This document shows, piece after piece, positions 7,057 through 26,661 of a DNA stretch of 64,000 nt. This DNA comes from Brevundimonas sp. G8 (GTDB lineage: Bacteria > Pseudomonadota > Alphaproteobacteria > Caulobacterales > Caulobacteraceae). The notes below the pieces were generated by a model. That model worked only from the letters and a program-made list of their open reading frames with translations. It was not told the origin of the DNA and made no database searches. Numbering within the stretch: the stretch's first letter is position 1; each line of letters starts with the position of its first letter. A program made the position numbers and the translations under genes. The DNA is taken from contig NZ_LR732816.1 in assembly GCF_902506205.1 (NCBI RefSeq), positions 2,241,604 through 2,305,603 on the forward strand, in the 5' to 3' direction.

Positions 7057-7248
7057 ATGAAAGTTCTGCTCGAAATTGCGCTGACGTTTGTCTTTGTTCT
7101 CGCTCTTCTGCTGGGAACAAAAGCCATGCAGATCGGCGGTCCAGATATTGTAAGGGTGTTGGTTTGCGGCGCAGTGGGGTCGGGTTTTGCCAGCCTCGTC
7201 TGCTGGTCTGTTGGTCGCCATTTGCGGCAAAGACCCGTTAAATCTTAG
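7057..7248 (+). CDS. Small two-helix membrane protein
   Basis: The 63-residue product has a hydrophobic N-terminal helix (about residues 3-22) and a second one (about 31-52), then a basic tail RHLRQRPVKS. This predicts a small inner-membrane protein with two passes. The local composition is visibly lower in GC than the flanking genes, which may mean a foreign or fast-evolving origin. It lies between divergent ygfZ and the end of the kinase-like gene, whose stop is 12 bp away. No family is recognised; the reading rests on the membrane pattern and on the promoter-like sequence immediately upstream. Confidence 0.55.
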   Translation: MKVLLEIALTFVFVLALLLGTKAMQIGGPDIVRVLVCGAVGSGFASLVCWSVGRHLRQRPVKS

Positions 7249-7259
7249 GCGATCTCGCC

Positions 7260-8669
7260 TCACGCCACGACGGCGGCGGCCTCAGGATTGAACAGGGGAT
7301 CGAAGTTGCGCCAGTCGCTGGCGCCCCAGGCCGAGACGCGGGTGACCAGATCGACGATGTTCATCGGCTTGGCGATACAGTCGTCCATGCCGGCCTCTTC
7401 GTACTGGATCAGCTGTTCCGGCAGGGTGTTGGCGGTCAGGGCCAGGATCGGCGTGCGGCCGACCGGACCCGGCAGGGCGCGGATGGCGCGGGTGGCATCG
7501 ACGCCGTCCATCACCGGCATCTGAATATCCATCAGGATCACGTCCCAGTCGCCGTCGCGGGCGGCATCGACCCCTTGCGCGCCGTCGTTAGCGGTGGCGC
7601 AGAGGATGCCCTGGGCGGACATGACGGCCATGACCAGGGCGCGGTTGCTGTCGTGATCGTCGACATAGAGAACGCGCAGGGCGGCGGCGTCTTCGTTGGC
7701 GGGCGCGGGTTCTTCGATGACTGTATCGGGCGTCGGCAGGGGAATGACGTTGTCGGCCGACAGGTCGATCATGTCGTTGACTACGGACAACAGACGCTGG
7801 CCCGCGCCATTGATGCGGGCGGCGTGGTCGGCGTGTTCCTTAACCAGGCCGGCCTTGGACAACAGGTCCGAGAAGCCGATGACGGCGTTCAGCGGTGTGC
7901 GCAGTTCGTGCGACATGTCGGTCAGGAACTTCTGCCGCGCCTCGGCCATGGCGGTCTTCTGCTCGGCGGCGACGCGGGCCTGTTCGGCCTCGACCCGTTC
8001 GGTCACGTCGATCTCGTTCAGCATGACGCCCAGCTGGCCCGTGACCGGATCGATGACCGGGCGGATGTCGAGGTGGTGCCAGCGCAGGCCCTCGCGGGTG
8101 ATGATCTCGCAGACGTCCGAGGACAGGTCGCCTGACAGGGCTGCGGCCAGCATGGGCTGTGCGCGCTCGGGTTCCGCGAACCGGGCCTCGAAGGGATGGG
8201 TGGTCGAGCCATAGGCCGCGAAGGCCGCGGGGTTGGAGAACAGCGGCCGGCCTTCGCTGTCGAACAGGGAGATCAGGGTGGAGGTGTGACGCAGGGCCTC
8301 GACCGCGCGACGCTCCTCGCTCTCGACCTCGATGGGGGCGGCCTCGAACAGCAGGACCGGTGTGCCGTCGTCCAGCCAATGGGTCGAGATGATCGCCGTC
8401 ACCGTCAACGGCCGGCCGTTGGGATAGAAGGTCCAGTGTTCGGACAGGGTCTCGCCGTTCGCCGTCTCGCGCGCCAGGCGTTCGGTGCGGGCCAGGACGG
8501 CGGGGGACATCTGGCTGAAGTCGCGGGCCAGCAGGGCGTCGAGGCTGTCGGAGCCCCACAGATCCAGGGCGGCGGCGTTCGCATAGACGCCTCGCATGGC
8601 GGACGGATCGAACATCCAGATCGGGCGTCGAAGCGCGTCCCAGGCCTGCATTTCCGGCGTGTCTCTCAA
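7260..8669 (-). CDS. PAS-HisKA-receiver protein lacking a HATPase domain
   Basis: This 469-residue protein looks like a hybrid sensor kinase with its engine missing. PAS-like domains cover about residues 10-110 and 125-225, followed by a coiled linker and a dimerisation/phosphoacceptor helix with [19 protein letters not shown] (His254). The second helix ends near residue 305, and after a short proline-rich linker the receiver domain begins at 331 (DD at 337-338, phosphoacceptor Asp381 in LMDIQMPVMDG, Lys434). The roughly 110-residue ATP-binding domain with N, G1 and G2 boxes expected between them is absent, without any frame disruption. It may relay phosphate from another kinase or act as a scaffold. 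A CtrA-like site lies 39-53 bp upstream of the start. Confidence 0.85.
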   Translation of the reverse strand: MRDTPEMQAWDALRRPIWMFDPSAMRGVYANAAALDLWGSDSLDALLARDFSQMSPAVLARTERLARETANGETLSEHWTFYPNGRPLTVTAIISTHWLDDGTPVLLFEAAPIEVESEERRAVEALRHTSTLISLFDSEGRPLFSNPAAFAAYGSTTHPFEARFAEPERAQPMLAAALSGDLSSDVCEIITREGLRWHHLDIRPVIDPVTGQLGVMLNEIDVTERVEAEQARVAAEQKTAMAEARQKFLTDMSHELRTPLNAVIGFSDLLSKAGLVKEHADHAARINGAGQRLLSVVNDMIDLSADNVIPLPTPDTVIEEPAPANEDAAALRVLYVDDHDSNRALVMAVMSAQGILCATANDGAQGVDAARDGDWDVILMDIQMPVMDGVDATRAIRALPGPVGRTPILALTANTLPEQLIQYEEAGMDDCIAKPMNIVDLVTRVSAWGASDWRNFDPLFNPEAAAVVA

Positions 8670-8707: not shown

Positions 8708-8722
8708 TTAAGCTTCAGCTAA
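8708..8722 (-). promoter_or_regulatory. CtrA-like site upstream of the kinase-like gene
   Basis: TTAA, seven bases, CTAA matches seven of the eight fixed bases of the CtrA box (TTAA-N7-TTAA) known from Caulobacterales cell-cycle promoters. It lies 39-53 bp upstream of the start codon at 8669, a position suited to CtrA control. It also covers the stop codon of the upstream YkgJ-type gene. A single near match in this much sequence can arise by chance. Confidence 0.35.
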
Positions 8723-9288
8723 GCTGTGGGATCATCCTGGGTTGTCACGGCGTATCGCGCGACGACGCCGTCTGGCTGAAAATCATGCTCGGCCAGCGTA
8801 TCGAGCGAGCGCAGGACGCGGGCCAGGAAGGCGGCAGGATCGCCGTCCTCGATCGCCGGGCGCAGCCATTCGGTGACGACGGCGCGGGCGGGATAGGCGC
8901 CGACCGGGCCGGGAATGCTGAGGGCGACCTCAATCCCCTCGGCGACCCAGCCGGCGACGGTCATGAAGAAGTCGGGCGAGGCCAGGAAATCCGAGCGGCG
9001 CAGGACATACAGGGTGATGATCCCGTCCTCGACCCCGTCGGGGCGGACGATGACGCCGCTGAGGTCCGGCCGCCAGTCGTCCGACAGCTCGACAACGCGC
9101 CACAGGCAGAACCAGATGCGGCAGGTGTTGGGCCGGATCGCGTGGACCGAACAGCCGGCGCCGTCGACGCAATAGGCGCACAGCTCGCCGGTCGGCTTGG
9201 CCAGTTCCGGCAGGTCCAGCGGAATGACCCGGCAGCATTCGACGCAACCGCCGCAGGTCCGGCCGGGGAGGAGGGGAAGTGAGGTCAT
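8719..9288 (-). CDS. YkgJ-family cysteine-cluster protein
   Basis: The N-terminus carries CGGCVECC (Cys12, 15, 18, 19), the CxxCxxCC pattern of YkgJ-type putative zinc/iron-chelating proteins, followed by CAYC, GCSVHAIRPNTCR and WFC, so eight or more cysteines could hold metal or an Fe-S cluster. The remaining half (to residue 189) is a plain alpha/beta region without known motifs. It starts 12 bp after the retropepsin-like gene and is probably in the same transcript. The cellular substrate is unknown for the family. Confidence 0.82.
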   Translation of the reverse strand: MTSLPLLPGRTCGGCVECCRVIPLDLPELAKPTGELCAYCVDGAGCSVHAIRPNTCRIWFCLWRVVELSDDWRPDLSGVIVRPDGVEDGIITLYVLRRSDFLASPDFFMTVAGWVAEGIEVALSIPGPVGAYPARAVVTEWLRPAIEDGDPAAFLARVLRSLDTLAEHDFQPDGVVARYAVTTQDDPTA

Positions 9289-25065: not shown

Positions 25066-26661
25066 ATGAGTGGCGTGACATCGAAGACGGGTTGGCGGGC
25101 GTGGAGCACGTTCAGGATCGCGGTGATCCTGATGTTGTCGTCGATCATCGGCATGGCGGGCGTTCTGGGCACGGTCAGCCAGGGCATCGATGCGCACCAG
25201 GCGCGCAAGGAAGAGGCGTTGGTCAAGTTGCGGCTGACGCGGGCGCTGGAAATCATCGGCGAGAACCTGACCACGGCCTCGGTCTGGGACGAGGCCGTCG
25301 ATCACATGACGACCGGCGATGTGGCCTGGTACGATCGCACCATGGGCGCCTTCTACGCCGTCCAGCACAAACACCATTTCACCCTGGGCTATGACGCGAC
25401 GGGTCGGCTGTTCCGCATCAGCACCGAGACCCGACCGGCCAGCGCCGAAGCCGGCGATCCATTCGCGCGCGCTGCCCGACCCTTGGTCGATCGGTTGCGC
25501 GCCGAGGCGTTGGCGCGTGATCGTTCGGATGCCGCTGTCCGCCTGAGGTCGGCCTTCGTGCGTGTTGACGACACCATCTATGTCCTGGGCGCCTCAACCG
25601 TAGTTCGCCACACGGAAACGGGAGCGACGCCGGCGTCTGATCCAGTGGTCGCGTCGTTCAAACCCTTCCTGAGTGAGTTGGACATACTCCGCACGCGGCT
25701 GGCGTTGACCGAAGTGCATTTCCAGCCCGGTGAGGCCGCGCCGCCCCAGGGCATGATCGGCGTCGATGTGCGCGACGCTGGCAGCGCCCTTTTGGGCCGC
25801 GTTGTCTGGGCGCCGGAACGGCCGGGCTATCAGATCCTGACGCGGGCCGGGCCGCTGCTGCTGCTGCTGATGGTCGTGCTGATCGTCGGCACGGCGTTCC
25901 TGTTCTGGAACACGACCGCCGATGTGCGCCGTCTACGGGCGTCCGAAGTCGCCCTGTCGGCAGCGTTGGAGCGGGCCGAGGCGGCGAACCAGGCCAAGAC
26001 GCGGTTCCTGTCGAACGTCAGCCACGAACTGCGCACGCCGCTGAACGGGGTGCTGGGCATGGCCGAGGTGATCGGGGCGGACCTGGTCACGCCGCAGCAG
26101 CGCGACAGGCTGGAAATCCTGAAGGCGTCGGGGCGTCAGCAGCTGAGGCTGGTTGAGGAGTTGCTGGACGTGGTGCGGCTGCGCGACGGGGCGGTGACGC
26201 TGGAGGAACGGCCGTTCCGGCCTGACAATCTGCTGCGACGTGTCGCCAATGATCTCAGCGGCGCGGCGCAGGCCAAGGGCTTGAAGATCGACGTCGAGGC
26301 CGCCGAGGGCGAATGGCTGGGCGATCCGGTCCATGTCGAGAAGCTGATGGCGGCGCTGAGCGACAACGCCGTGCGCTTCACCCGGACGGGCCAGGTCATC
26401 CTGAGGGCCGTCGCTGGCGATCAACTGGTGCTGGAGGTGGAAGATACCGGCCCCGGCATGGAGCCAGAGGCGGCGACGCGCCTTTTCGACGCCTTCACCC
26501 AGGGCGACGAGAGCAGCACGCGCACCGCCGAGGGCCTGGGGCTGGGCCTGACGGCGGCGCACGGCCTGGCCGCGTTGATGGGCGGCAGGATCGAGGTCGT
26601 GACCGAACCCGGCGTCGGCAGCACTTTCCGTGTCGCCCTGCCGCTGGAAGCCGTGGTTTAG
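25066..26661 (+). CDS. CHASE4-type sensor histidine kinase
   Basis: The 531-residue kinase has an N-terminal membrane helix (about 17-37), a periplasmic sensor with [24 protein letters not shown] typical of CHASE4 domains, a second helix (about 262-280), a coiled linker, the phosphoacceptor [19 protein letters not shown] (His320), and a complete ATPase domain: the N-box LSDNAVRFT, the G1 box DTGPGM, and the G2 box GLGLGLT. No response regulator is adjacent. The ligand is unknown. Its stop overlaps the convergent ispH stop by 4 bp. Confidence 0.88.

Follow-up and report, generated by a model that had tools for sequence, protein, structure and literature searches.

The window, a 64,000-nucleotide stretch of the Brevundimonas sp. 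G8 genome, carries on its reverse strand a gene for a protein with two PAS domains, a HisKA (DHp) domain and a receiver (REC) but no HATPase domain, laid out as follows:

7260..8669, (-): gene of the PAS-PAS-HisKA-REC protein without HATPase; 469 amino acids (aa) from TTG, 463 aa from the ATG at 8651
8340..8642, (-): first PAS domain, residues ~10-110; the PAS_8 hit falls short of its cut-off, and the structure model has PAS-like strands and helices here
7992..8297, (-): second PAS domain (PAS_4), residues ~125-226; Pfam and model
7758..7940, (-): HisKA (DHp) domain, residues 244-304, with the HExxT motif at H254/E255/T258; Pfam, model and alignment
7908..7910, (-): codon of His254, the phospho-acceptor; invariant in 48/48 short and 17/17 full orthologues
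7680..7751, (-): variable Pro/Ala-rich linker, residues 307-330; site of the ATPase domain (179-192 aa) in full orthologues
7335..7673, (-): receiver, residues 333-445, with the acidic pair D337/D338, the phospho-acceptor Asp381, T412 and Lys434; Pfam, model and alignment
7527..7529, (-): codon of Asp381; invariant in 65/65 orthologues examined

The frame is open, without an internal stop, and the initial annotation, which had reported an intact H-box at His254, a receiver with Asp381 and Lys434 and no frameshift, gave coordinates and numbering that hold for a TTG start at 8669. Judging from sequence, the ATG at 8651-8649 (residue 7) appears the likelier start, because Met stands at about the same place in three orthologues (L009, L016 and L042). 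Beside the gene lies a small open reading frame at 7057-7248 (+), membrane-protein-like by eye and without a tblastn match in the other loci compared. Just upstream, 8719-9288 (-) encodes a Cys-rich protein, YkgJ-like by eye, which had no Pfam match at E≤1 and is retained as its neighbour in the close clade.

Pfam assigned HisKA (PF00512, 58 bits, profile positions 1-61 of 66) and Response_reg (PF00072, 82 bits) to the protein and returned no HATPase family at E≤10, so that the claimed lack of an ATPase domain withstood a sensitive profile search; the G1 and G2 patterns were likewise found in 0/48 short family members. The Hpt domain (PF01627) is absent from its Pfam matches, and the four Hpt places in the G8 genome all lie away from the gene. 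NCBIfam gave 120 matches at E≤1, and among the 25 listed none reached its cut-off and nearly all reflected the HisKA or receiver parts of other kinases and regulators. By domain membership the protein is neither a histidine kinase (the catalytic (CA, HATPase) domain was tested for and is absent) nor an Hpt protein. It does carry the phosphatase-type HE/DxxN/T motif, here HELRT, whose H, E and T are kept in 48/48 short forms. The initial annotation had described the CHASE4 protein at 25066-26661 (+) as having the opposite make-up; HisKA and HATPase without a receiver were indeed found there, but this is an ordinary classical layout rather than an opposite, and no link between that kinase and the gene at 7260-8669 was found.

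An AlphaFold2 model, based on 40 aligned short orthologues out of the 48, had a mean pLDDT of 86 and a pTM of 0.47, the latter leaving the relative placing of the domains undefined. It comprises two PAS-like domains, a DHp hairpin made of a long first helix and a second one (pLDDT about 79-92), a linker (about 41) and the receiver. PAS-containing sensors were the first PDB matches to the whole model, and the receiver resembles solved receivers, among them the one in hybrid kinase PA1611 (TM-score 0.90, normalised by target length). Because the HisKA match is nearly complete and both helices are present in the model, the excision of the ATPase domain is clean.

Searching 390 Caulobacteraceae genomes from 22 genera at E≤1e-60, we found family members in 64 genomes of 5 genera. 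These comprise 65 orthologues: 48 short ones without the ATPase domain, in 47 genomes, and 17 full ones with it. Within the genus, 40 of 131 genomes have a member, which lacks the ATPase domain in 39 and includes it in one (G001); the other 91 had no family match at this threshold. The short form occurs in Brevundimonas intermedia, vesicularis, huaxiensis, mediterranea, poindexterae, halotolerans, fluminis and aveniformis, in Phenylobacterium deserti and in a lichen genome named Caulobacter sp. S45; the full form occurs in B. abyssalis TAR-001, Caulobacter sp. Root343 and 602-1, and others. One short orthologue (L049) ends at residue 381 with its contig, and one genome of the genus (G046) holds two diverged short copies (L027 and L041), both without HATPase.

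With the domain missing from 48 of 65 orthologues in 47 genomes, a deletion confined to one strain or its assembly, which the initial annotation had named as a possible artefact, was rejected. A hidden or divergent HATPase was rejected too: besides the empty Pfam search at E≤10, a HATPase model built from the full members matched, among the family, those members only, and the B. abyssalis orthologue has a clear HATPase (89 bits, Pfam). Three open frames of 870-906 aa (L018, L027 and L045) had suggested fused upstream domains, which by eye are non-coding or antisense extensions. A search for plasmid carriage gave no match at E≤1e-40. Among 22 more distant relatives, eight were scanned for the domains attached to the double-PAS region, which was joined to GGDEF (four), GGDEF-EAL (one), STAS (one) or HisKA-HATPase (one); the remaining protein (L180) had PAS and GAF domains only. 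With this variety of output domains, the double PAS is a movable sensor. Proteins that pair it with GGDEF, GGDEF-EAL or STAS (L177, L178, L182, L184, L185 and L193) were seen in Ancylobacter, Azospirillum, Nostoc, Marinobacter and Plesiocystis.

Across the alignment, H254, E255, T258, P259, D337, D338 and D381 are invariant in 65/65 family proteins, as is K434 in the 64/64 that reach that position. Both T412 and K434 are kept in all 47 short forms long enough to show them; position 412 is Thr in 47/47 short forms and Thr (13) or Ser (4) in full forms. The linker measures 21-48 aa in short forms versus 179-192 aa in full forms, and no remnant or degenerate CA domain was found within those 21-48 aa. 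In 14 chosen short-form pairs, dN/dS was 0.06-0.21 for HisKA, 0-0.28 for PAS, 0.03-0.35 for REC and 0.24-1.6 for the linker, compared with 0, 0.10 and 0.24 for HisKA in three full-form pairs; single ratios are rough, since dS is often high or rests on a short stretch. For these 14 pairs, the ratios place the short-form HisKA under purifying selection comparable to that on PAS and REC, with a drifting linker. The receiver has Cys (C431) at the switch position, and Tyr or Phe occurs there in 0/64 family receivers; a variable aromatic switch residue is described for the intermediary receiver of CckA in the available part of one study (PMC9981736). As an argument about function this is weak, because the receivers of three other hybrid kinases in the G8 genome also lack Tyr/Phe at that position.

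On a tree of 443 columns, from which the ATPase part was excluded, three changes between short and full forms are needed and well-supported branches force at least two. Such a count does not by itself distinguish loss from gain; the presence of HATPase in hybrid kinases and in the Caulobacter outgroup makes loss the natural reading. Without that outgroup (51 rows), the tree again required three changes, two to three over bootstraps, with at least two forced. AU tests disfavoured a single clade of all short forms (p 0.023) and gave p 0.048 for the main 43 short forms joined with L048; joining the main 43 with the four aveniformis members (p 0.081), or aveniformis with B. abyssalis as one clade (p 0.289), was not rejected. 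The tested groups were named after inspection of the tree, and the tree program warned of long branches. Gene neighbourhoods also connect the two forms: B. abyssalis (L150, full) and the aveniformis-group members L170 and L174 (short) have three neighbour gene families in common, two of which lie upstream in matching order, and L173 and L176 of the aveniformis group have one in common with B. abyssalis. All three short-form groups on the tree retain the same phosphotransfer residues. Two losses of the ATPase domain are therefore fairly well supported and three are the best single estimate; most likely, the protein at 7260-8669 descends from a full hybrid kinase by such a loss, a change that is old and conserved and has probably happened more than once. 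Regain of HATPase by recombination in the nested full members is disfavoured: the CA domains of these three members match family members best, which weakens that reading, even though for one (L040) the margin is small (119 bits vs 106 for an unrelated kinase).

We also searched 385 genomes of the class with a HisKA-linker-REC profile, scoring up to seven places per genome, so that weaker cases may have escaped. Among the matches listed, at least four proteins aligned near end-to-end: three family members and a protein from another Caulobacteraceae genus (G184, L200:3395-4660). The latter is 421 aa long, with HisKA and receiver and no HATPase match, an unrelated N-terminus, differing HisKA and REC sequences and the H-box HELRDH instead of HELRTP; its HisKA (59% over 58 aa) and receiver (47% over 118 aa) resemble those of the L079-type hybrid kinase described below. 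On these sequence grounds it may have lost its catalytic domain independently, as a second case. Two weaker candidates (G515 and G710) were rejected, as HATPase is present in both. It is tentatively suggested that within a single orthologous kinase family of the Caulobacteraceae the CA domain was excised two or three times with the phosphotransfer residues fixed, and that the G184 protein, a differently equipped hybrid kinase, arose likewise. If true, CA removal would be a repeatable evolutionary path from a sensor kinase to a sensor-gated phosphate shuttle, and would point to a PAS-DHp-REC signalling class without ATPase for which we found no experimental description in the literature.

We consider it moderately probable that the protein at 7260-8669, a former hybrid histidine kinase, is now a sensor-gated His-Asp phosphotransfer or phosphatase protein fed by other kinases. 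Its domain make-up, ancestry, lack of CA, kept phosphotransfer residues and purifying selection are the observed basis of this reading. The PAS domains and the DHp hairpin have been retained and CA lost, and with CA gone the protein should not be able to use ATP; a histidine kinase without this domain does not autophosphorylate. Another kinase or an Hpt protein would place phosphate on Asp381 or on a partner receiver, and His254 of the DHp domain would exchange it both with this receiver and with another response regulator. Dephosphorylation of the latter regulator may be possible too, through the HExxT motif, and a PAS signal would set the direction or rate of transfer. We infer the dimer, the phosphate flow, the signal and the partners in this scheme, including the feeding by another kinase that the initial annotation had suggested. 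The phosphate sites and HExxT are fixed in all short forms, whereas the linker drifts; this is most simply explained by continued movement of phosphate via DHp and receiver. His254 and Asp381 could also be kept for structure, and in a laboratory-evolved ChrS pseudokinase the His is not involved, according to the accessible portion of that report (PMC9491836).

The main rival reading, a split kinase, is conceivable, though rather unlikely: the CA domain of a complete histidine kinase might phosphorylate His254 in trans, in a heterodimer or transient complex, from which phosphate would pass to the protein's own receiver or to another regulator. Residues of the E255 type assist phosphorylation by a CA domain, and E255 is kept in 48/48 short forms; DHp domains, however, homodimerise as a rule. 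The G8 genome has 48 HisKA and 58 HATPase_c (PF02518) matches at E≤0.001, and HATPase lies within 600 bases downstream on the same strand for 47 of the 48 HisKA places, the gene at 7260-8669 being the sole exception. Conversely, 11 HATPase places have no HisKA match, and the eight that were scanned yielded no catalytic-only partner, which argues against use in trans: seven have another acceptor or dimer domain (two CheA and five HisKA_2; Pfam), and L205, considered as a free-standing HATPase, was rejected because an H-box is visible on reading. The other three (L206, L207 and L212) are gyrase/topoisomerase- or MutL-like by their first residues. No conserved operon partner was seen, and neighbour genes are shared only within clades. 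Seven genomes, all from one clade (L009-L015), nevertheless have a full PAS-HisKA-HATPase-REC kinase convergent with and adjoining the short form, 73-76% identical to the G8 kinase at G000:C1:642865-644433. This L079-type kinase, the sole one put to a co-occurrence test, was commoner in genomes with the short form (33/39 vs 53/92 at E≤1e-120; Fisher p 0.0027, kinship ignored). It lies ~1.6 Mb from the gene in G8, and as an obligate partner it was rejected, having no match at this threshold in six of the 39 short-form genomes (four of the aveniformis clade, G048 and G105). In the available part of one paper, trans use is suggested for HE/DxxN/T HisKA proteins without HATPase, which number 711 of 42417 in SMART (PMC3591291).

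Less probable again is an allosteric pseudokinase or scaffold like DivL, which would bind a response regulator or kinase and alter its activity, phosphorylation of His254 being unused. DivL has lost its phospho-acceptor His, whereas no short form departs from His254 or Asp381, and this constancy makes such a role less likely. Among the 30 of 48 HisKA and 30 of 58 HATPase places of the G8 genome that were compared, the nearest DHp belongs to a DivJ-like kinase (48% over 79 aa; score against the DivJ model 426 bits, short of the cut-off of 1000), so that DivK-type partners are conceivable. Both the L079-type kinase and the DivJ-like DHp are weak partner leads. DivL and the frameshift form of ChrS work without a phosphorylation site of their own, as the accessible portion of the ChrS report has it (PMC9491836). 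Finally, a functionless, decaying remnant or an assembly deletion is very improbable: it would suit the missing catalytic domain and the 91 genomes of the genus without a match, but the 48 copies have no internal stops, several lie in single-contig genomes and dN/dS is low. The initial annotation had offered two readings, a phosphotransfer or scaffold protein and the product of an internal deletion, and each fits at a level of its own. Descent from a full kinase is most likely, and a strain or assembly deletion does not stand, because the loss is ancestral and the remainder is kept by selection.

By analogy, the protein most likely works like a DHp phosphotransferase, of which PhyT, Spo0B and ChpT are examples derived from kinases, as described in the available text of one paper (PMC5898713). 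PhyT (formerly PhyP) of Sphingomonas melonis, also an alphaproteobacterium, is alike in being kinase-derived and in having a DHp His that moves phosphate between receivers (PMC5898713); it is membrane-anchored, with a degenerate ATPase domain still present and an HRxxN motif, whereas the protein described here has PAS domains, HExxT, its own receiver and no ATPase domain. CheA3 and CheA4 of Rhodobacter sphaeroides also include a phospho-acceptor protein without a catalytic domain that is loaded by another protein, CheA4 phosphorylating CheA3 as a split kinase (PMC3591291, in part). They differ in belonging to the CheA family, with a P1 acceptor and a known partner, rather than combining HisKA with a receiver. 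Archaeal REC-PAS/GAF-HisKA proteins of the AF_1472 type and the RHH-HisKA-REC proteins of Lokiarchaeum likewise unite HisKA with sensors, some with a receiver, and no HATPase. In contrast to the present family, they are archaeal, have other domain combinations and, in the sections of the survey available, stand without a full-length orthologue alongside; those sections describe their whole REC/HisKA class without HATPase as unstudied (PMC5847659).

HisKA without HATPase is a catalogued class, recorded in the available parts of P2CS (PMC2716373), the archaeal survey (PMC5847659) and SMART, where it makes up 3.66% (1556 of 42417; PMC3591291). Our literature search found no paper characterising a PAS-PAS-HisKA-REC protein without HATPase or describing this family. 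As far as these searches go, three things are new: an orthologous family that includes both forms, evidence that the loss recurred, and the test of whether the residues are retained. The closest comparison is with the full hybrid kinases of B. abyssalis and Caulobacter sp. Root343 and 602-1, which have orthologous PAS-PAS-HisKA and receiver parts and differ in the HATPase between HisKA and receiver. Related species, several of them represented by named isolates, carry full and CA-less orthologues, in one case with shared neighbours, so that the function of CA-less proteins can be tested against an ancestor-like control.
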